Source: Alphaproteobacteria bacterium (lineage in GTDB: Bacteria > Pseudomonadota > Alphaproteobacteria > UBA8366 > Aestuariispiraceae). Taken from it: a stretch of DNA of 64,000 nt. Position 1 is the stretch's first letter. Each line of letters opens with the position of its first letter. A model generated the notes under the pieces. That model made no database searches, was not told the origin of the DNA, and saw only the letters and a list, made by a program, of their open reading frames with translations. The stretch is taken from positions 1,736,001-1,800,000 of the forward strand of contig JAWPMN010000001.1 of NCBI GenBank assembly GCA_033344895.1, in the 5' to 3' direction. The position numbers were made by a program, and so were the translations under genes. Positions 24,328-38,797 of the stretch are shown here, one piece after another.

Positions 24328-26064
24328 ATGGTTGCCACGGAACAGTTTCAAAAGGCCGGGTCATCGCCCGGCAGGGTCGGATCAGGCATGGCAGTGGCAG
24401 AACGGACGGGCAAATTGGACCTCCCGGCGCTGACCGGCGCTTTCGACAGCTATCCCGGCCCGGTTCTGGCGTTGGACGAGGACGCGCGGCTGGTGCCGTT
24501 GAATGCCGCGGCGATTCCCGTTGCCGACGATCTGAACGGCGACACCGGGGTTTCGCTGATGCCCGCCATGGTACAACTGGCGGTAAAGACCCGCAGCGAG
24601 AACCGCGCCAAGACCCGCACCTTCACCCTTCCCAGCACCGGCCGTCAGGTCGAGTTCATCATGCTGCCGCAGTCCGACGGATCGCAGTTGCTGATCGGCC
24701 GGGACGCGACGCTTGAAGTCAGCATTCGGTCCGCCCTGGCGGAATCCCGAACCCGGTTCAAGGATCTGGTGGAGGTCGCCGCCGATTTCGCCTGGGAAAC
24801 GGACCGGGACGGTTTGATCTGCTATATCTCGCCGCGCGGTGCCATCGGCTACGCGCCGGAGGAACTTCTGGGCGAGGCGCCGGAAACGCTCCTGCTGGCC
24901 CCGGAATCCGCCCCGAAGCCGTTGCCGTTTCTGGCCGACGTGATCGTCCGCAATGTCGAGGTCTGGGTTCGTACCCGCGGTGGCGAGCCGGCCTGCATCC
25001 TGGTTTCGGCGATTCCGGTCCTCGACAAGGACGGCATTCTGTCGGGGACGCGCGGCATTGCCATCGACGTGACCGAGGAACGCCAGCGCCAGAGCGAACT
25101 GGCGCGCCTGAAGATCCGTGAGCGGCTGGTCTCCTATATCGTCGATTCCCTGCGCAATGAGGTCACGCCGACCGAGATGCTGCACTCCGCGGCTACGGCG
25201 CTGGGCCGATCGACATCGGCATCGGCCTGCATCGTGCAGGTCCGCGGGCCCCATGGCACGCCGCTGGATATCGCGGCTTTCGGCACCGCGCCGGACCCCG
25301 ATCTGGCGGAAGAAGCGATGAACGCCATCCTGGCCAAGCACGGCAGCGCCGTGGAGGGCGGGATCGGTCCGCACAAATATCTGGGAATCGCCACCGACTA
25401 TCGTGGCGAAACCAACGGTGGGATCGTCCTGTGGCGCGACGATGACGGACAGGGTTGGGATGACGAGGAGCATGCCCTGCTGAAGGCGGTCGAGCCGCAA
25501 TTCGGCATTGTGTTCCGTCAGATCGCTGACCAGCACCAGCTGGAGCATCTGTCGCGCACGGACGATCTGACGGGCCTGCGCAACCGCCGCGCCTTCATGG
25601 AAGATCTGTCGCGCGAAATGGCGCGATATGAGCGCTATCGGGAACCGGGGGCGCTTCTGTTTGTCGATCTGGACAATTTCAAGCCCATCAATGATCGCTT
25701 CGGCCATGAAAAGGGCGACGAGGCGCTGAAGGCGATTGCGGACATCCTGTCGGGTGCGACACGGACCTACGACCTGACCTGTCGGCTGGGCGGCGACGAG
25801 TTCGCGGCCTGGATCGAAGGGGCCGACCGGGAGATCGGTGAGGCGCGCGCCGAGAAGTTCCTATCCAGCCTTGAAGTCTGGAAGGCCGAGCATCTGGACC
25901 CCGAAATCGGCTTCGGCATGTCGATCGGGGTTGCGATGTTCGAACCGGGCACCGGAGAGACGGTTGAAGGCTTGATCGCCCGGGCCGATGCGGCAATGTA
26001 CGATGCGAAGAAGGGTGGGAAGAACCGGATCGTGTTCGCGGAATCCCGCATTGCCGATGCTTAG
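24328..26064 (+). CDS. PAS/GAF-containing diguanylate cyclase
   Basis: A 578-residue soluble signalling enzyme that makes c-di-GMP from two GTP. Two PAS-like domains (about 35-130 and 140-250) precede a GAF-like region (about 265-400). The GGDEF domain (about 405-575) has an intact GGDEF at 488-492. The RxxD inhibitory site, Arg479 to Asp482, stands five residues before it, so product feedback is expected. No EAL domain and no TM segment are present, so it senses a cytosolic cue. An AT-rich 129-base divergent region separates it from the nucleotidase. Confidence 0.9.
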   Translation: MVATEQFQKAGSSPGRVGSGMAVAERTGKLDLPALTGAFDSYPGPVLALDEDARLVPLNAAAIPVADDLNGDTGVSLMPAMVQLAVKTRSENRAKTRTFTLPSTGRQVEFIMLPQSDGSQLLIGRDATLEVSIRSALAESRTRFKDLVEVAADFAWETDRDGLICYISPRGAIGYAPEELLGEAPETLLLAPESAPKPLPFLADVIVRNVEVWVRTRGGEPACILVSAIPVLDKDGILSGTRGIAIDVTEERQRQSELARLKIRERLVSYIVDSLRNEVTPTEMLHSAATALGRSTSASACIVQVRGPHGTPLDIAAFGTAPDPDLAEEAMNAILAKHGSAVEGGIGPHKYLGIATDYRGETNGGIVLWRDDDGQGWDDEEHALLKAVEPQFGIVFRQIADQHQLEHLSRTDDLTGLRNRRAFMEDLSREMARYERYREPGALLFVDLDNFKPINDRFGHEKGDEALKAIADILSGATRTYDLTCRLGGDEFAAWIEGADREIGEARAEKFLSSLEVWKAEHLDPEIGFGMSIGVAMFEPGTGETVEGLIARADAAMYDAKKGGKNRIVFAESRIADA

Positions 26065-28344: not shown

Positions 28345-31300
28345 CTACTCCCCGTTCTGGGCGTGGACCAGTTCGTTTCGGGCGCGGTTCAGCTCGCTGG
28401 TGGTCAGGATCAGGCGGCGGCCCAGTTCCCGGGTCATTTCGAAGGCGAATTGCGGGTCCTGGCGGGCCATTTCCGAAAAGACTTCGCGGTTCAGTCGCAG
28501 CGCCGTCGTCGTGATGCGGGCGCGGACGGTGGCGGTACGTTTTGAATCGCACAGCAGGGCCAGTTCGCCGACCAGCTTGTTCGCCCCCAGTTCGAACAGG
28601 ACCTGCTCGGAATCCTCCGTCTCGATCACGACTTCGGCGGCGCCGTCCAGGATGACATAGGCGTCTTCCCCGTCATCGCCCTGCTGCATCAGGATCTCGC
28701 CCGGCTTGTAGGTCATCCGTTCGCTGGTGAAGGCCAGGAACTTCAGCTTCGTGGCATCCAGATTCGAGAACAGCGGCAATTCCTGCAGCAGCCGTGCCTC
28801 GGCGCTCAGCGCCTCGCTGGCTTTGGCTGTGGCCGCCGGGGCGGCGCGCTGTTCTTCCGGGCTGGCGGCCTCGCCGTCGGTTCGGGTCAGGACGCGCCCG
28901 TTCTTGATGTCGAAGGTCCGGGCAAAGTCGATGCCCTCCTGGGGTGAGGAGCCGACCCAGATCTGGGTCGTACCGTCCAGCGCATCGTGCAGTTTCCGGG
29001 CAATCCGCTTGCGCTGGCCCGGCTCGATATTGTTCAGCCCGTCTGCCATGACCAGGATGTCCGGACGCTTCAGCGCGACCCGGACCGCATTGAGCTTCTG
29101 GCGCTGGATGCCGGACAGGCGTCCGCCGCCGATGCCGACCTGGAAATTCAGTGCGGTACGCAGAATGGCGGGCTCCAGGCCCAGATCATGCGCGACCTCC
29201 TGAACCAGGGCGCCGACCTTCTCCATGGCATCGGCGCGGCCGTGGACGATGCGCCCGAACAGGATGTTGTCCAGGATGCTGAGACCGCGGTTGATCTGGT
29301 CGTCGCGATACGGGTCGACGCCCCCGCCCGGCTCGAAGATCTCGGGATGTGTGGCATGCAGATCATGGCGCAGGTCAACCAGCCGCTGCTGCATGGCGTC
29401 GTCGATCAGGCCCAGGCGGTGGCGTTGCACGGTCAGATTCAGCGGCAGGCTGATGATCACCTGGCGCTCCGACGGGGTCAGTTCCGACACGCCGCCTTCC
29501 TTCTGGACCTTGCGGATCACGACCTTCAGTTCCGGCAGCACCTCCTCGTTCACGAAACTGTACTGATCGAAGAAGGAATGGCCGGCCGGCACGTCGCGGA
29601 ACAGGTCGACGATCAGTTCGGCGCAGCGCAGTCCGATGTCGAAGAAGTCGTCGATCAATCCATGCTTCTCCAGCATTTCGCGGATGATCGTGTTTTTCGG
29701 CCAGTTCTCGTATTCCCATTCGGGTTTGACCGGCTTGCCGAAGATGATGTTGCCCGCGACGGAGGCATAGGTGTTGTAGCGCTCGAAATCATAGGCCTGG
29801 ACAAGGTCGTCCATGCCGCGCGCATCAAGCAGCTCTCGGATGCGCTCGCGCGCCGACCCGATCTGCTCGGCCAGGTCCGGAACCAGTTTCGGATCGATGC
29901 TCTGGCGCAGGCCCAGGGCGTACATGTCGTCCCGCAGCTCGACGGTCTCGAACAGGTCCAGGGCCTTGTCCAGCACGCCGGTCCGGTCTTCCGCCCCGGC
30001 GCTGTGATAGTCGAGCCAATCCGCCGTCGGGCTGAACGGGCTGTTGCCGGACGCGACCGCTTCCTCGATCTCCTTCAGCCGGTCCTCGTCGGCCTGTTGG
30101 CTTTCCAGTTCCTTGACCGGGGGCAAACGCCGCAGGCCCAGCAGCAGGTTGTCCGCAATGGATTCGTTGAAGAAGATCGGGTCGCTGACGACATAGCCGA
30201 TCCGCGCGCCGGTCACGGCCTCGTGCAGGCCTTCGACCTTGTCGCCGCCGATGGTCAGGCTGCCGCCCGTCGGCATCAGCACGCGCGCCATCAGCCGGGC
30301 GAAAATTTCCTTCGCCGTACCGTTCGGGCTGACCACGGCGACGGCCTCGCCCTCCTCGACGGAGAAGCTGGAATTGTCGATGACGCGCACGCCGTCCTCA
30401 TCGGCCCAGGTCAGGCCGTTGGCCTCCACCGCACCCTTGAGCCGCGGCAGATCGGACGGGGGATCGCGCTGCAGGTCTTCCGGCAGCATGCCGGGCGGTT
30501 CGAACTGGCTGATCAACTGATCGTACTTGATCTTGGAATCCGCCAGCCGCTGGTACCAGCCCAGCAGTTCCTTCCACGGCGCCGCCAAATCCTTGTAGGC
30601 CGCAAGTGCCGCGACCAGCGCCCCGATGGACAGGTCGCCGAACAGGACCAGATAACCGCCGATGGCATAGAACAGGAACGGCGTCATCTGGTTGATGAAG
30701 TTGTTCACGAACTTCATGAAGAACTTGCGTTCGTAGATCTCCAGTCGGACCCAGAAGATCTTGCCGAGACTGCGCGAAATGTCGGACAGGACGAAGCCGG
30801 TATTGTCGTGTGCGCGCACATCCTGAACGCCGCCGACGACTTCACCTATGCGGTTCGACAGCTTGCGGACGTGCTTCACCCGCTCCTTGCCGAGCTGATT
30901 GATCCGCTTCTGCAGCTTCGGAATGATGTAGCCCTGCACCGGCACCAGGGCCGTGGCCGCCAGTCCCATCATCGGGTCCTGCACGAAAAGGAAGGCGATG
31001 ATCGTCAGGAATGTGCCGCCCTGGAAGGCCAGCAGCACGATGGCATCGCCGAAGAACCCGCCCAGGGGCTCGACCTCGGCGGTGACCATGGTCACGACCT
31101 CGCCGGACGAGGTTTTCTGGAACTGCGGCAGGGGGAAACGCAGTGTGCGCTCGATCAGGATGAACCGCAGGCGGCGCAGAAGGCGCTCCGCCATGATCCC
31201 CTTGTAGGTGTTGATCCGCATCTTGAATACGCCGTTGATGCAGACCAGTGCCAGAAACAGGGCGCAGAGCAGGAAGAGATAGGGCAGCCGCTCCATCTCG

Positions 31301-31536
31301 ATGCCGAACATCGCGGTGAGGTCGAAACCGAAGATTTCGACCGGAACGACCTCTTCCGGTACCGGTACGCTGGCATCGTCGGCCTGGGTCGGATCCTTGA
31401 TCGCCTTGTTGACGATGGTCTTGGGCAGATCGAAGGAAAAGTACAGAAACGGAAACGAGATGGCCGTAAGGGCGAGCGCCAGCAATTGCTCGCGCTTCGA
31501 GTACGCCCAGATATAGCCGTACATCGACTTATGCAT
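28345..31536 (-). CDS. ABC-exporter-like membrane protein with degenerate ATPase and C-terminal cyclic-nucleotide-binding domain
   Basis: A 1063-residue protein. Residues 15-335 form an ABC-exporter TM domain. The ATPase region is spread over about 365-890. Its Walker A is SPNGTAKE (403-410): the Lys is kept, but two Gly and the Ser/Thr are lost. An insert of about 290 residues follows before the signature RLSGIQRQ (806-813). Walker B ends ILVMADGL, with Gly for the catalytic Glu. The switch His is absent (IWVGSS, 859-864). NIxFG-type motifs recur at 463-467, 596-600 and 757-761. Residues 915-1045 are a cNMP-binding domain with GELALL and the phosphate-binding Arg1000 followed by Thr. ATP turnover looks unlikely. 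It is downstream of the CHASE2 cyclase. Confidence 0.88.
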   Translation of the reverse strand: MHKSMYGYIWAYSKREQLLALALTAISFPFLYFSFDLPKTIVNKAIKDPTQADDASVPVPEEVVPVEIFGFDLTAMFGIEMERLPYLFLLCALFLALVCINGVFKMRINTYKGIMAERLLRRLRFILIERTLRFPLPQFQKTSSGEVVTMVTAEVEPLGGFFGDAIVLLAFQGGTFLTIIAFLFVQDPMMGLAATALVPVQGYIIPKLQKRINQLGKERVKHVRKLSNRIGEVVGGVQDVRAHDNTGFVLSDISRSLGKIFWVRLEIYERKFFMKFVNNFINQMTPFLFYAIGGYLVLFGDLSIGALVAALAAYKDLAAPWKELLGWYQRLADSKIKYDQLISQFEPPGMLPEDLQRDPPSDLPRLKGAVEANGLTWADEDGVRVIDNSSFSVEEGEAVAVVSPNGTAKEIFARLMARVLMPTGGSLTIGGDKVEGLHEAVTGARIGYVVSDPIFFNESIADNLLLGLRRLPPVKELESQQADEDRLKEIEEAVASGNSPFSPTADWLDYHSAGAEDRTGVLDKALDLFETVELRDDMYALGLRQSIDPKLVPDLAEQIGSARERIRELLDARGMDDLVQAYDFERYNTYASVAGNIIFGKPVKPEWEYENWPKNTIIREMLEKHGLIDDFFDIGLRCAELIVDLFRDVPAGHSFFDQYSFVNEEVLPELKVVIRKVQKEGGVSELTPSERQVIISLPLNLTVQRHRLGLIDDAMQQRLVDLRHDLHATHPEIFEPGGGVDPYRDDQINRGLSILDNILFGRIVHGRADAMEKVGALVQEVAHDLGLEPAILRTALNFQVGIGGGRLSGIQRQKLNAVRVALKRPDILVMADGLNNIEPGQRKRIARKLHDALDGTTQIWVGSSPQEGIDFARTFDIKNGRVLTRTDGEAASPEEQRAAPAATAKASEALSAEARLLQELPLFSNLDATKLKFLAFTSERMTYKPGEILMQQGDDGEDAYVILDGAAEVVIETEDSEQVLFELGANKLVGELALLCDSKRTATVRARITTTALRLNREVFSEMARQDPQFAFEMTRELGRRLILTTSELNRARNELVHAQNGE

Positions 31537-31662
31537 GTCAGTACTGCCCCCCAGCGGTGACCACGCCGACCGGTACCGGGTCTCCCCAAACGCCGCCACC
31601 TTCGCTGACCCCCATTGCGACCTGTCGTGTCTGCCTAGTCAAGCTTGTCACCCGGAATTGCC

Positions 31663-33882
31663 TCATTTCCTGGTCAGGTCCGTGACGCCGTCCCATCCGG
31701 GCGGCGGCGGCTCCTGCAGCCGTATTTCGCAGCGTTCCACGGCCTTGGCGGAGGCAGGGTCCCCGTCCTGGGCCAGCGTCCGGAACGCGTCGCGCGCGGC
31801 CGCGAAGTCGCCGGCCTGGAACCGGTGCAGGGCGGCCTCATAGGCATCGCGCAGGGCCAGTGTCTCGTCCTTCACCGACCCGGCCTCGCCCAGCGGCTCG
31901 TAGAGGCCGACCGGGGAGTCTCGGCCGACGACGCGAACCCGGTCGATCATCCGCCACTCGAACAGGTCGCCGGTGGCCCTTACCGTGTCTTCGCCGGCCA
32001 TCAGCAGGGTGCCGTATTGCTTGTTCACGCTTTCCAGCCGCGCCGCCAGATTTACGGAATCGCCCATGACGGTATAGGTCTTGCGCCGCTCCGCCCCGAC
32101 ATTGCCCGCTGTCATGAAGCCGGTATTGATGCCGATCCGGGTCCGTACAACACGGCCTTCCGGCACATCGAACCGGTCCTGCGCCGCGGCCAGGCCCCGA
32201 TCAATCGCCAGGGCACAGCGAACGGCGCTGACGGCGTGGTTGTCATCCCGTACCGGCGCGCCGAAGACCGAACAGACCGCATCCCCCAGAAAACGTTCGA
32301 TGATGCCGCCATGGGCCTCGATCTCGCGGCCGATGATCTTGAAATACTCGTTCAGGAAAGTGACCAGTTCCGGCGGCCCCATCTTCTCCGAAATGCCGGA
32401 AAACGCTTCGATGTCCGAGAAGAAACAGGACAGCTCGCGGCTTTCCCCGCCCAATTCCGGCACATCGCCGGCATCGATCATCGCCTCGATGACCTTGCGG
32501 TCGAGATATTGCGAGAAGGTCTGACGCACATGACGGCGTTCGCGGTCCGCGGTGACGAAGCGGAATCCCACCATGCCGCCCAGCGCCAGCAGCGCCGCGG
32601 CGCCGGGGTCGGTCAGCGGTAGGACGGTTCCGTCCCTGAACAGGAATGCCGCACCCAGCGCATAGAGGCCCCCGATCGCGATTGTGGCGCCCAGGGCGAC
32701 CGACGGGCGGCGCCAGGCCGCCAGCCCTGCCGCGACAAGGGCCAGCGCGAAGGCGGCACCGAAACGCAGCCCCGGCCCGGGCCGGTCGACCGCCTCGCCG
32801 TCCAGCAGATTTCGCACCGCATGCGCATGTAGATAGACGCCGGCTTCGGTATTGCGGGTCAGGGCGGCGACCGGGGCCGGTGCACCGTCGCAGGCTTCGG
32901 GGGCGCCCGCGAAATCCGGGCGGCGCACGAGACGGTTTGACATCAGCTTGCGGTCCTCGAGATCGGTGACGAAACCGAACAGAACCGCCCGTCCCTCGAA
33001 GGCCCGGCGCAGATACTCCGCGTCGTCGCAGGCCAGAATGTCGTGGAAGGTATAGGACGGCACAGCGCCGGGTGTCGGGTCGAAATTCACCACCATATTG
33101 GTGCCGCGTTCCGCATCCGCCAGAACCGGAACGGATTTTCCCCCGAAGACGAAACGCCTCGGCGGAGACCATTCGAAATCCTGGCCGCTGTGACGCCGCG
33201 CGACTTCCAGCGCAAAGAAAGGGTGCAGCCCGCCATCCGCCGTATCGGCCAGCAGCGGGACGCCGCGCACGATGCCGTCGGCGTCGACATAGGCGTTGAC
33301 GGAATGCAGCGCCGCGCCGCGCCCGATCATCTGGCGCAGGCCCTGATGCGGCAGCACCGGCCCCTGCGCCAGATCGGCATATCCGAGGACTATACGGCCC
33401 TGTCCGCGCCCATAGGTCTTCATGCCGATCAGCAGGTCCCGGTCCAGCCGCCGCAGGGCCCGTTCCGAACCGCTGTCCAGATCGACGCGCCCGCCCAGAA
33501 TGTCGGACATGGATTTGGCCGCGCTGTTCTGCAGGATCACGTCCCAGGCGAAGACCGTCGCCCCGGCCTCCAGGACTTTTGCCTGCACCGCCGCCATCTG
33601 GTCGGTCCAAAGGATGCGGGGAATGCCGGACAGGCCGTCCGCGGCAAAGGTTTCGGGGGTGATCGCGACAACCGCGACGGGGCTGTCTTGTTCGATCCGC
33701 CCGGCGCCGATGGTATCGCGCAGCAGGTGCAGGATATCCTCGTCGAGCGGATGGAACCGGTCAAAGGACGGAATGGCCGTGGCCAAGGCCGCGATCGCGG
33801 CCGCGATGAGGCAGGCCGTCGGATTGCGCCAGCGCCGGAACTGGCGCCGGGCCGTCGGTCGCGATTCCCCGTCCCCGTTCAC
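31663..33882 (-). CDS. CHASE2-containing class III nucleotide cyclase
   Basis: A 739-residue inner-membrane enzyme. After one TM (about 21-38) comes a periplasmic CHASE2 sensor (about 45-360), then three TM segments (about 372-442) and a class III cyclase domain (about 480-680). Metal-binding Asp490 (FFSDIEAFSG) and Asp534 (FLGDAV) are present, as are Asp608, Asn611 and Arg615 in MGDSVNLAARLES. The purine-contacting Lys position is Arg530 (IIERFLGD), which is unusual. The product is probably cAMP, but cGMP cannot be excluded. A short C-terminal helical repeat follows. It begins 14 bases after a secreted-protein gene and lies 126 bases before the cNMP-binding ABC-like gene. Confidence 0.9.
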   Translation of the reverse strand: MNGDGESRPTARRQFRRWRNPTACLIAAAIAALATAIPSFDRFHPLDEDILHLLRDTIGAGRIEQDSPVAVVAITPETFAADGLSGIPRILWTDQMAAVQAKVLEAGATVFAWDVILQNSAAKSMSDILGGRVDLDSGSERALRRLDRDLLIGMKTYGRGQGRIVLGYADLAQGPVLPHQGLRQMIGRGAALHSVNAYVDADGIVRGVPLLADTADGGLHPFFALEVARRHSGQDFEWSPPRRFVFGGKSVPVLADAERGTNMVVNFDPTPGAVPSYTFHDILACDDAEYLRRAFEGRAVLFGFVTDLEDRKLMSNRLVRRPDFAGAPEACDGAPAPVAALTRNTEAGVYLHAHAVRNLLDGEAVDRPGPGLRFGAAFALALVAAGLAAWRRPSVALGATIAIGGLYALGAAFLFRDGTVLPLTDPGAAALLALGGMVGFRFVTADRERRHVRQTFSQYLDRKVIEAMIDAGDVPELGGESRELSCFFSDIEAFSGISEKMGPPELVTFLNEYFKIIGREIEAHGGIIERFLGDAVCSVFGAPVRDDNHAVSAVRCALAIDRGLAAAQDRFDVPEGRVVRTRIGINTGFMTAGNVGAERRKTYTVMGDSVNLAARLESVNKQYGTLLMAGEDTVRATGDLFEWRMIDRVRVVGRDSPVGLYEPLGEAGSVKDETLALRDAYEAALHRFQAGDFAAARDAFRTLAQDGDPASAKAVERCEIRLQEPPPPGWDGVTDLTRK

Positions 33883-33896
33883 CCCCTCGGTTTCCG

Positions 33897-34571
33897 TCAG
33901 AGCGGGACGAGGCGGGCGATCAGCGCGGGCGACCGTTCTTCGGCAAGCTTGGAAACCAGCACGGTCAGGGTTCGATCGCCTCGCCGGATCAGATAGGTCT
34001 GACCCGGTGTCAGGGCGATGCCGGCGTCGCGGAAGTCGGCCAGCCCGTCCGAGGCGCCGACCCGGGCCCAGGTCCCGGACCCGGCTTCGCAGGCGTCGAT
34101 ATAATCGACTGCCGCCGCAGGCTCTGTCAGGCGGACCAGCGGGCTGACGTCATAGACGACAACATCGGGCACCAGACTGTCGCAGGGATTGCCCGGCCGC
34201 ATGACCGTCGTGCCGGCTTCCTGCTGCTGCGCGCTGGACAGGGTGACGACCTGATCGTCGCAGGACACATAGGCGGTTTCCACCGTCCCGCCGGCAACGT
34301 CGCTCTGCATATCGCCGACCGTGACCGTCCCGCCGGTAATGGTCTCCTGGGCGCAACTGATGAAATAGCCGATCGTCAGAACCTCGCCGGGGGCCAGCTG
34401 GATGATCTGTCCCGGCTCCAGATAATCCATCATCTGGACATCGTCGCGGTCGCTGGAGATATCCTCCACCATCGCGGATGGTTCGTCTGCGCCCGCGATT
34501 CCGGCCCAGGCCACCGTTCCGATCAGAAGCGAGATCACCCCGCCCGCGCGTCGATATGCCATATCCGACAA
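33897..34571 (-). CDS. predicted secreted protein of unknown function, upstream of the cyclase
   Basis: A 224-residue protein with an N-terminal signal peptide (hydrophobic core about 10-27, cleavage candidate after AGA). The mature part is rich in short beta-strand patterns such as EPGQIIQLAPGEVLTIGYF and has four Cys (SCAQE, SCDDQ, NPCDS, DACEA), which could pair in the periplasm. It has some resemblance to FecR-type periplasmic proteins, which are often encoded next to CHASE2 cyclases, but I cannot make a firm family call. The 14-base spacing to the cyclase suggests it acts with the CHASE2 sensor. Confidence 0.7.
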   Translation of the reverse strand: MSDMAYRRAGGVISLLIGTVAWAGIAGADEPSAMVEDISSDRDDVQMMDYLEPGQIIQLAPGEVLTIGYFISCAQETITGGTVTVGDMQSDVAGGTVETAYVSCDDQVVTLSSAQQQEAGTTVMRPGNPCDSLVPDVVVYDVSPLVRLTEPAAAVDYIDACEAGSGTWARVGASDGLADFRDAGIALTPGQTYLIRRGDRTLTVLVSKLAEERSPALIARLVPL

Positions 34572-37023: not shown

Positions 37024-37905
37024 ATGACCGATTACATCCTGGGACCCGATCCGGCTGACCCGAAGCTGACCCGCCAGGTCGACGGCGTCGACCAGGACGG
37101 CAATCCGGTGACCGCCGCGGTCGTGGTGGAACGCCCCCTGACCCTGTTCCTGAACGGGCAGGAGATCGTCACGAATATGACGATCGGCGATTACCCGGAT
37201 TATCTGGCGGTCGGCTATCTGCTGAACCAGAACATGCTGCGTCAGGACGATGTGATTACCGCCATCGACTATGACGAGGACCTGGAAACCGTCATTGTCC
37301 GCACCGAGCGCGAGACGAATTACGAAGAGAAACTGAAGAAGAAGGTCCGAACCTCCGGCTGCGCGCAGGGCACGGTGTTCGGCGATCTTATGGAAAAGAT
37401 CGAGGATACCCGGCTGCCGGACGGCGCGGTTTTGCGGACCTCCTGGCTGCAGACCCTGACCAGGGCGATCAACACCACGGACAGCCTCTATCTCCAGGCT
37501 GGCGCCATTCATGGCTGCGTGCTGTGTCAGGAAGACCGGCCGCTGGTCTATATGGAAGATGTCGGCCGCCACAATGCCGTGGACAAGATCGCCGGCTACA
37601 TGTTCCTCAACGGCATCGCCGCCGCCGACAAGATTTTCTACACGACCGGGCGATTGACCTCGGAAATGGTAATCAAGACGGTACAGATGGGCATTCCGAT
37701 CCTGATCTCGCGCTCCGGCTTCACGGCCTGGGGCGTGGAACTGGCGCGGGAGACCAACCTGACCCTGATCGGGCGCGCGCGCGGCAAGCGCTTCACCGCC
37801 CTGGCCGGCCTCGACCGGATCGTTTTCGACGCGACGGCGGATGCGGGTGAGGAAGAGCCGGTCCGTCTGCGCCGCAAGGGGAGCCTGCCGCCGGATGCCG
37901 CCTGA
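37024..37905 (+). CDS. fdhD: formate dehydrogenase accessory protein FdhD
   Basis: A 293-residue protein of the FdhD family, which passes sulfur from a cysteine desulfurase to the molybdenum cofactor of formate dehydrogenase. The family stretches GYLLNQNMLRQDD, AGAIHGCVLC, YMEDVGRHNAVDKIAGYMF and GRLTSEMVIK are present. The two-Cys motif of E. coli FdhD appears as SGCAQG, with Cys113 kept and the second Cys replaced by Gly. The start is supported by GGGGCAGCA before the ATG. It overlaps the next gene by 11 bases. Confidence 0.92.
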   Translation: MTDYILGPDPADPKLTRQVDGVDQDGNPVTAAVVVERPLTLFLNGQEIVTNMTIGDYPDYLAVGYLLNQNMLRQDDVITAIDYDEDLETVIVRTERETNYEEKLKKKVRTSGCAQGTVFGDLMEKIEDTRLPDGAVLRTSWLQTLTRAINTTDSLYLQAGAIHGCVLCQEDRPLVYMEDVGRHNAVDKIAGYMFLNGIAAADKIFYTTGRLTSEMVIKTVQMGIPILISRSGFTAWGVELARETNLTLIGRARGKRFTALAGLDRIVFDATADAGEEEPVRLRRKGSLPPDAA

Positions 37906-38797
37906 CGGTTCGACCCCGCTGGTACCGGCCGACATCCTGCGCGCCGTCGATGCCGCGATCGAGGAGCAGGGACGCTGGATGACCCGGTGGCACCGGGCGC
38001 TGGTCTGTCGCCTGCCCGCAGAGCCGGAACTGGTCGATCCGCGATCCGACGAGCTGACGGAATTCGGGCGCTGGCATCACGACCATCGCGACGATCCGCT
38101 GATGTCCCAGGCCGCCTTCCGCGAGTTGTGGCAGAGCTATCTGGACATGCACAGGGCGGCCCGGCTGGTCGCGGCGGATACCGCGCGGGACCCCGACCCT
38201 GCGGAATACGACGATGTCATCGCGAAGGCGGAGGATTTCCTGACCCAGGCGCGGCGCATCCGCGATGCCTTCCGCAAGGCGGTCTCCGACCTAGACCCGC
38301 TGACCGGGCTGAGCAACCGGACCACGATGACGGCGGAATTGACGGCGGAGTATCAGCGCGCGGTGCGGTCGAAGACGCCCTGCTGTCTGGCGCTGACCGA
38401 TATCGACCATTTCAAGAAGGTCAACGACACCTATGGCCATGCGGTCGGCGATGAGGTCCTGGCCGCAACGGCCGGGCGGTTCCTGTCGCGCATGCGGCCC
38501 TATGACCTGATCTATCGCTATGGCGGGGAGGAGTTTCTGCTCTGCCTGCCCAATGCCGATCCGGCAACGGCGAAGAATGTGCTGGAACGGCTGCGCGAGA
38601 CGCTGGCGGGAAAGCCGATTCCGCTGCAGGACGGGCGGGAACTGCCCGTCACGGCGTCCTTCGGGTACTGCGAAATCGATGGCGGCGTGCCGCTGAAGCA
38701 GGTGATCGAACAGGCGGATCAGGCGCTCTATCGCGCCAAACAGGCGGGCCGGAACCGGGTCGTCGGCTATTCGGAAAGTAAGGACGCGGATGACTAA
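37895..38797 (+). CDS. diguanylate cyclase with DgcZ-like N-terminal domain
   Basis: A 300-residue soluble GGDEF enzyme. Residues 15-125 resemble the CZB zinc-binding domain of DgcZ in length and pattern (FGRW at 57-60, His86), but most zinc ligands appear replaced. The GGDEF domain (about 130-295) has GGEEF at 210-214 and the RxxD product-inhibition site RPYD at 201-204. The ATG overlaps the fdhD stop by 11 bases, and the gene overlaps mobA by eight bases. It is thus translated between two genes needed for molybdenum enzymes. Confidence 0.88.
   Translation: MPPDGSTPLVPADILRAVDAAIEEQGRWMTRWHRALVCRLPAEPELVDPRSDELTEFGRWHHDHRDDPLMSQAAFRELWQSYLDMHRAARLVAADTARDPDPAEYDDVIAKAEDFLTQARRIRDAFRKAVSDLDPLTGLSNRTTMTAELTAEYQRAVRSKTPCCLALTDIDHFKKVNDTYGHAVGDEVLAATAGRFLSRMRPYDLIYRYGGEEFLLCLPNADPATAKNVLERLRETLAGKPIPLQDGRELPVTASFGYCEIDGGVPLKQVIEQADQALYRAKQAGRNRVVGYSESKDADD

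Follow-up and report, generated by a model that had tools for sequence, protein, structure and literature searches.

A degenerate ABC exporter with a predicted cyclic-nucleotide sensor accompanies a candidate surface-glycan gene set in Alphaproteobacteria

We analyzed a 64,000-nucleotide stretch of an alphaproteobacterial genome (Aestuariispiraceae; contig JAWPMN010000001.1, positions 1,736,001 to 1,800,000; hereafter the window), in which a gene for a CHASE2 class III nucleotide cyclase is followed by a gene for an ATP-binding cassette (ABC) exporter-like protein with a C-terminal cyclic nucleoside monophosphate (cNMP)-binding domain. On balance, we favor an interpretation of the exporter-like protein as a cNMP-sensing pseudo-ABC exporter that serves a conserved surface-glycan pathway of Alphaproteobacteria, joined in the clade of the window by a local cyclase. 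Both genes are on the minus strand. The cyclase open reading frame (ORF; 31663-33882, 739 amino acids) is separated by a 126-base spacer from the exporter-like ORF (28345-31599), which encodes 1084 amino acids from a GTG at 31599 or 1063 amino acids from an ATG at 31536 (28345-31536), about the point where the family alignment of relatives starts. Pfam detected ABC_membrane (PF00664, 3.7e-21), a partial ABC_tran (PF00005, 3.8e-10) and cNMP_binding (PF00027, 5.3e-19) in the 1063-residue protein, and CHASE2 (PF05226, 1.4e-18; residues 54-374, 32761-33723) and Guanylate_cyc (PF00211, 2.1e-20; residues 483-654, 31921-32436) in the cyclase. The ORFs and Pfam matches agree with the gene and domain order, including the spacer, described in an original prediction made from the nucleotide sequence; chance ORFs were excluded by these matches and by family-wide conservation.

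The exporter-like protein has the domain order of a type IV ABC exporter, with a six-helix exporter transmembrane domain (TMD; residues 5-345, 30502-31524) followed by an ABC ATPase domain. A family profile of 881 positions, which lie close to but are not identical with window residues, matched solved exporters (P-glycoprotein, Sav1866, MsbA) in two blocks, typically ~60-460 and 766-873, among the best 60 of 550 matches. The two halves of the ATPase domain (N-terminal, residues 366-470, 30127-30441; C-terminal, residues 766-880, 28897-29241, with RLSGIQRQ, VMADG and IWVGSS) are separated by an insert of ~295 amino acids (residues 471-765, 29242-30126), which is common to the aligned relatives and, in an AlphaFold2 model of the protein (mean pLDDT 84.1, pTM 0.71), mostly helical and mostly of high confidence. 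An element that follows the Q-loop recurs in the insert region (SIADNLLLG at 459, SVAGNIIFG at 592 and SILDNILFG at 753). Profile-profile probabilities were 97.6 over 60 columns for the second versus the third copy, 84.1 for the first versus the second and 79.6 for the first versus the third, which supports reading the elements as a putative divergent repeat; since the first-versus-second match spans only 21 columns and the first-versus-third probability is the lowest, the first copy is the weakest part of the triplication.

The window protein has extensively altered ATPase motifs. Walker A reads SPNGTAKE (30307-30330), the Walker B Asp is replaced by Ala, and the columns of the catalytic Glu, the switch His and the Q-loop Gln hold Asp, Ser and Ser. 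The protein thus lacks the combination of GxxGxGK[ST], Walker B Asp, catalytic Glu and switch His by which hydrolytic ABC transporters are recognized, and from its sequence would not be classed as one. The original prediction had called the loss of the catalytic Glu and switch His, which the alignment bears out, and had left unmentioned both the changes in Walker A, Walker B and the Q-loop and the insert in the ATPase domain.

Decay of the ATPase domain extends across the family. We aligned 80 sequences, namely the window protein and those of 79 of 80 loci, these being the best 80 of 577 matches with full-length ones favored; L115, in which no open frame was called, was dropped, L117 is cut by a contig end and lacks the later motifs, and L081 is a 555-amino-acid piece. 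A cNMP domain is fused to the exporter in 35 of the 79 loci and resides in a separate frame immediately downstream in 41, with none at two loci and a contig edge at one. None of the 80 sequences carries the full set of Walker A Lys/Arg plus Ser/Thr, Walker B Asp, catalytic Glu and switch His (L117 cannot show it). The switch His is kept in 0/35 fused and 20/41 split forms, and in the Walker A Ser/Thr column, Asp or Glu occurs in 20/35 fused and 33/41 split forms and Ser in 11 and 4, respectively. Split forms retain the P-loop Lys/Arg in 37/41 and the catalytic Glu in 29/41.

Conservation in the pseudo-ABC family is inverted relative to an ordinary exporter, the membrane domain being better conserved than the ATPase halves. 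Among 14 family genomes, mean pairwise identity was 0.722 for the TMD, the best-conserved part, 0.470 and 0.476 for the ATPase halves, 0.530 for the insert and 0.685 for the cNMP domain. As a matched control, an ordinary exporter of the same genomes, with Walker A, signature and Walker B motifs intact in 14/14, gave 0.517 for the TMD and 0.680 for the nucleotide-binding domain. The same order of conservation was found in a wider set of 61 sequences (TMD, 0.596; ATPase halves, 0.384 and 0.388; insert, 0.411). Two proteins that look TMD-only are encoded elsewhere in the window genome, near 4.600 and 4.256 Mb (L127 5868-7094, 408 amino acids; L128 6555-7517, 320 amino acids). They are 49% and 29% identical to the family TMDs and too short for an ATPase or sensor; of the pair, Pfam found ABC_membrane in the L128 protein only. 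Their neighbors, judged by eye, are MerR-like regulators and NhaA-like and SbtA-like genes, and TMD-limited matches also occur in genomes G008, G013 and G015. Such relatives would fit with a membrane domain able to work without an ATPase.

The putative sensor is the other well-conserved part. In the window protein, the cNMP-binding domain (residues 941-1027, 28456-28716) contains GELALL (residues 990-995, 28552-28569) and KRTATV (28525-28542), and residue numbering confirmed the earlier placement of the pocket Arg at 1000; the pocket Glu is residue 991. These two residues, together with the PF00027 match, mark it as a predicted cyclic-nucleotide-binding domain. The pocket Glu is present in 77/77 and the Arg in 74/77 family matches, with Thr replacing the Arg in three fused relatives (L091, L099 and L108). 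The residue after the pocket Arg in the window domain is Thr; work on the cGMP-dependent kinase PKG links Thr at this position to a preference for cGMP. Fused and split states are separated by one change on a quick 61-row tree, in which 12 of 58 inner branches are unresolved, two rows without a cNMP domain were not counted and L107, without the domain, falls among the fused forms. A second ABC frame with a cNMP-like region (L005) is found near 4.057 Mb of the window genome, with 26% identity over query residues 803-1058 and an internal TAG.

To place the family more broadly, we used an even draw of 104 alphaproteobacterial genomes, of which 37 (36/103 genera) hold the transporter, 36 of them with a single family match. 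Flanks of up to ~8.6 kb were taken for 35 of the 37 loci, all except those of the window genome and one congeneric genome, and were shortened at 10 of the 35; in all neighbor analyses, gene calls were crude and glycosyltransferase (GT) families were assigned by Pfam. At 32/35 loci, the cNMP frame is either fused to the transporter or forms the next same-strand frame downstream, and GT28 and/or GT4 genes lie within the flanks at 26/35. Co-occurrence is nearly perfect: GT28 was found in 36/104 genomes, all 36 with the transporter, and the transporter without GT28 only in G108, with GT28 alone in none. The resulting distribution, 36/37 genomes with and 0/67 without the transporter (Fisher 3e-27), ignores shared ancestry, and many genomes lacking both genes are small. 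In the window genome, the glycan set is present ~180 kb from the transporter, with a GT28 protein 66% identical to that of L113. The constant partner of the transporter is the GT28/GT4 glycan cluster, not a cyclase. An Opp/Yej-like importer for peptides, composed of a long binding protein, permeases and a double ATPase, accompanies the glycan set at L126 775-6806 and L132 3378-9340.

One version of this gene set falls in an interval with an assigned phenotype. On pSymB of Sinorhizobium meliloti, a relative of 903 amino acids, with a cNMP protein as the next gene, lies between GT28/GT4 genes and a LacI regulator. Placed by gene order on strain ml46, between SMb21247-49 and the LacI gene SM_b21272 as located in passages of PMC5498481 and PMC11387232, the relative falls within smb21252-smb21271. 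According to passages of PMC10128002, this interval includes nine genes said to be needed for a putative phazolicin-protecting polysaccharide (PPP) and to matter for phazolicin tolerance; the same passages cite reports that cAMP regulates genes with a potential role in PPP, and cyaA insertions were strongly depleted in the screen described there. Seven of the nine PPP genes are up-regulated under Myxococcus attack, as stated in part of PMC10315480. By its co-occurrence and linkage with GT28/GT4 genes, the family belongs to a PPP-type glycan gene set. A class III cyclase is encoded ~12 kb from the S. meliloti relative, and unannotated strain Rm41 matches the cyclase domain at the same distance. 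In ml46 (L132 9438-13008), two GT28-type frames match in two pieces each and are missing from the gene table, compared with one piece in Rm41 (L140); either a strain difference or a sequencing error could explain the breaks.

The best Protein Data Bank (PDB) matches of the window cyclase (6fht, 2w01 and 3r5g, the last being CyaB) are all named adenylate cyclase or CyaB, and alignment to solved cyclases showed that the motifs SDIEAF, GDAV and VNLAARLE are retained. These hold what we take to be the two metal Asp residues and the transition-state Asn and Arg, by which the protein is predicted to be a class III nucleotide cyclase. In the alignment to 3r5g, the columns that presumably specify the purine carry Arg in the Lys column and Thr in the Asp column, a combination from which the nucleotide product is not predictable.

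Linkage of a cyclase to the transporter is limited to certain lineages. Full-length orthologs of the window cyclase occur in 4/14 family genomes, from two genera, and lie directly upstream of the transporter in 4/4; in the other 10, all with the transporter, cyclase matches covered only the cyclase domain and the adjoining residues. Within the genus of the window genome, four other genomes have the transporter and gave no full-length cyclase match, and the cyclase is therefore an optional partner, fixed in some lineages. Among the 79 nearest loci, class III cyclases of several types and orientations occur in the flanks at 11, amounting to 15 genes in 1031 kb versus 2.6 expected from a background of 348 cyclases in 137 Mb of 30 of their genomes; the enrichment is approximate, given related loci, two profiles (our own and PF00211) and background genomes that include all 11 positives, raising the background. 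Class-wide, a cyclase was found within ~8.6 kb of 4/35 loci, and the 4 genes in 541 kb of flanks compare with 1.9 expected from 521 in 145 Mb (Poisson 0.13), close to background. On these counts, the adjacency of cyclases to homologues, which the original prediction had proposed as its own check, finds no support as a general rule, and the cyclase was rejected as a universal partner. That prediction had read the locus as a relay in which the second protein is the receptor for the nucleotide made by the first. This reading is supported in part, by ATPase decay and pocket conservation across the family and by the upstream position of all four cyclase orthologs; what it left out are the constant partners, the cNMP module, fused or next door, and the glycan cluster.

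Ten plasmid regions, chosen mostly for annotation rather than at random and including several close relatives, were also inspected for cyclases near the transporter. A class III cyclase lies within 14 kb in 7/7 annotated Rhizobium, Sinorhizobium and Phyllobacterium regions and directly upstream in the unannotated region UR115 (L069); none was found in the Ruegeria and Azospirillum thermophilum regions. In one rhizobial version of the cluster (L138 18242-19942), a cyclase annotated as hypothetical has a 2Fe-2S ferredoxin domain ahead of the catalytic domain, which suggests a redox-read cyclase. L038 (CP051228.1), a record titled Mesoflavibacter whose content looks alphaproteobacterial, encodes a relative with 92% identity, preceded by the same cyclase. 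On the 5' side of the window cyclase lies a gene for a 224-amino-acid protein (33897-34571, minus strand; cluster c67), probably exported judging by eye from its N-terminus, for which Pfam gave no match; two members of this cluster were seen, adjoining the same cyclase in L038 and L046.

From these observations we infer the following sequence of events. In the window clade, CHASE2 would detect a cue outside the cytoplasm, in the periplasm, and cyclase activity would increase the nucleotide locally, next to its receptor, the pseudo-ABC protein. Binding of the nucleotide to the cNMP-type sensor, rather than ATP turnover, would set the timing, and the exporter-type membrane domain would move, release or organize a glycan intermediate at the inner membrane when nucleotide is bound. 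This pathway would correspond to that named PPP in S. meliloti.

Several points weigh against this interpretation. The glycan cluster is unlinked to the pseudo-ABC gene in the window genome, and the class-wide cyclase counts are close to background. No cNMP frame was found at 3/35 class-wide loci (L166, on a 5-kb contig, L167 and L169), and the three relatives with Thr in place of the pocket Arg may respond to a different ligand or to none. Binding of cAMP is not a given for a cNMP-type domain; by analogy with HetC, whose domain binds ppGpp and not cAMP according to passages of PMC10986499, the ligand might be one such as ppGpp. Foldseek comparison of the model with the PDB gave E-values down to 2.4e-16 and alignments running along whole P-glycoproteins, but with low TM-scores (by query length, 0.22-0.25 for P-glycoproteins, with root-mean-square deviations mostly ~29-35, and 0.32-0.33 for TmrAB), and therefore gives no information past the exporter fold. 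As for S. meliloti, the ABC gene may lie outside the nine PPP genes, the passages of PMC10128002 naming glycosyltransferases rather than the ABC gene; a constructed cyaA mutant altered phazolicin sensitivity only slightly in the same passages; and the cAMP/Clr targets in the sections of PMC5498481 concerned sit in the neighboring nodP2-smb21248 cluster, outside the PPP interval.

The upstream position of the cyclase could be incidental, with the cyclase and the c67 protein forming a signaling module of their own and the pseudo-ABC protein reading the general cellular nucleotide pool. We regard this as possible: the ten family genomes with the transporter and no cyclase ortholog, the lack of significant class-wide enrichment and the co-occurrence of the cyclase with c67 would all be expected, but the retention of the cyclase directly upstream in every genome with an ortholog, across two genera, and the proximity of other cyclases in several lineages and in rhizobia would not. 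The protein might also no longer be a transporter, acting instead in the membrane as a scaffold or regulator that, with nucleotide bound, keeps glycosyltransferases in place or activates them. ATPase decay, the tightly conserved TMD, the confidently modeled helical insert and the strict co-occurrence with GT28 would suit such a role, which we nevertheless consider rather unlikely, since an exporter TMD that is the most conserved part of the protein suggests that a ligand or passage is still handled, and TMD-only relatives occur elsewhere in the window genome.

Retained ATP-driven transport, either at a non-canonical site or in a pair with an intact half-transporter, is brought into consideration by the P-loop and catalytic residues of many split forms and by heterodimers with one degenerate site, which are described in part of PMC12038006. 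We judge it improbable, given that the window protein is altered at Walker A, Walker B, the Q-loop and the switch His and that nearly all class-wide genomes hold a single family match, though no search aimed at an intact partner subunit was made. Least probable in our estimation is a cyclic-nucleotide-gated channel built on the exporter fold. As in SthK, a C-terminal cyclic-nucleotide-binding domain (CNBD) comes after the membrane domain, the window domain matches the SthK CNBD, and ATPase decay and the TMD-only relatives are compatible with a channel, but strict coupling to a glycan gene set would be unexpected for a simple ion channel.

Comparison with the closest known systems sets the pseudo-ABC exporter apart from each. 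The S. meliloti PPP interval (PMC10128002) shares the ABC relative, the cNMP protein, the GT28/GT4 genes and a class III cyclase nearby, but there the sensor is a separate protein and the cyclase is of another type and position. HetC likewise joins an ABC exporter fold and a cNMP-type domain in one chain; as far as passages of PMC10986499 describe it, however, its domain is N-terminal, by a C39 peptidase, with the ligand noted above, and its ATPase catalytic residue is required. MsbA and other type IV exporters match in the TMD and ATPase halves, in PDB profile matches and with 121.6 bits for the NCBIfam MsbA model (TIGR02203), but the degenerate ATPase, the insert and the cNMP domain have no counterpart there; an ordinary MsbA-type exporter was rejected on the loss of the ATPase and a score far below the 602-bit cut-off. 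SthK-type channels share the position and sequence similarity of the CNBD and differ in the membrane domain, which in the window protein is an ABC exporter TMD. Searches of an open-licence paper library listed no description of the family or of a cNMP-gated pseudo-ABC exporter.

Around the locus, proteins with GGDEF-like motifs (GGDEF and GGEEF, by eye) are encoded on either side of the cyclase and transporter genes, at 24328-26064 and 37841-38797 of the window. Promoter and terminator scans gave counts no higher than in shuffled sequence.

If the interpretation of a cNMP-sensing pseudo-ABC exporter is correct, an exporter fold would have second-messenger binding in place of ATP hydrolysis as its conserved input, and proteins of this kind could be driven or controlled in a new manner. 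More tentatively, the whole family may have swapped ATP hydrolysis for cyclic-nucleotide gating at an obligatory membrane step of a surface-glycan pathway spread across Alphaproteobacteria, with a dedicated cyclase in some lineages. For the putative PPP polysaccharide, which contributes to protecting S. meliloti against an antimicrobial peptide and whose gene set was found in about a third of the sampled alphaproteobacterial genomes, the family would supply candidates for a membrane component and for a signal, and it makes the question testable in a laboratory symbiont.

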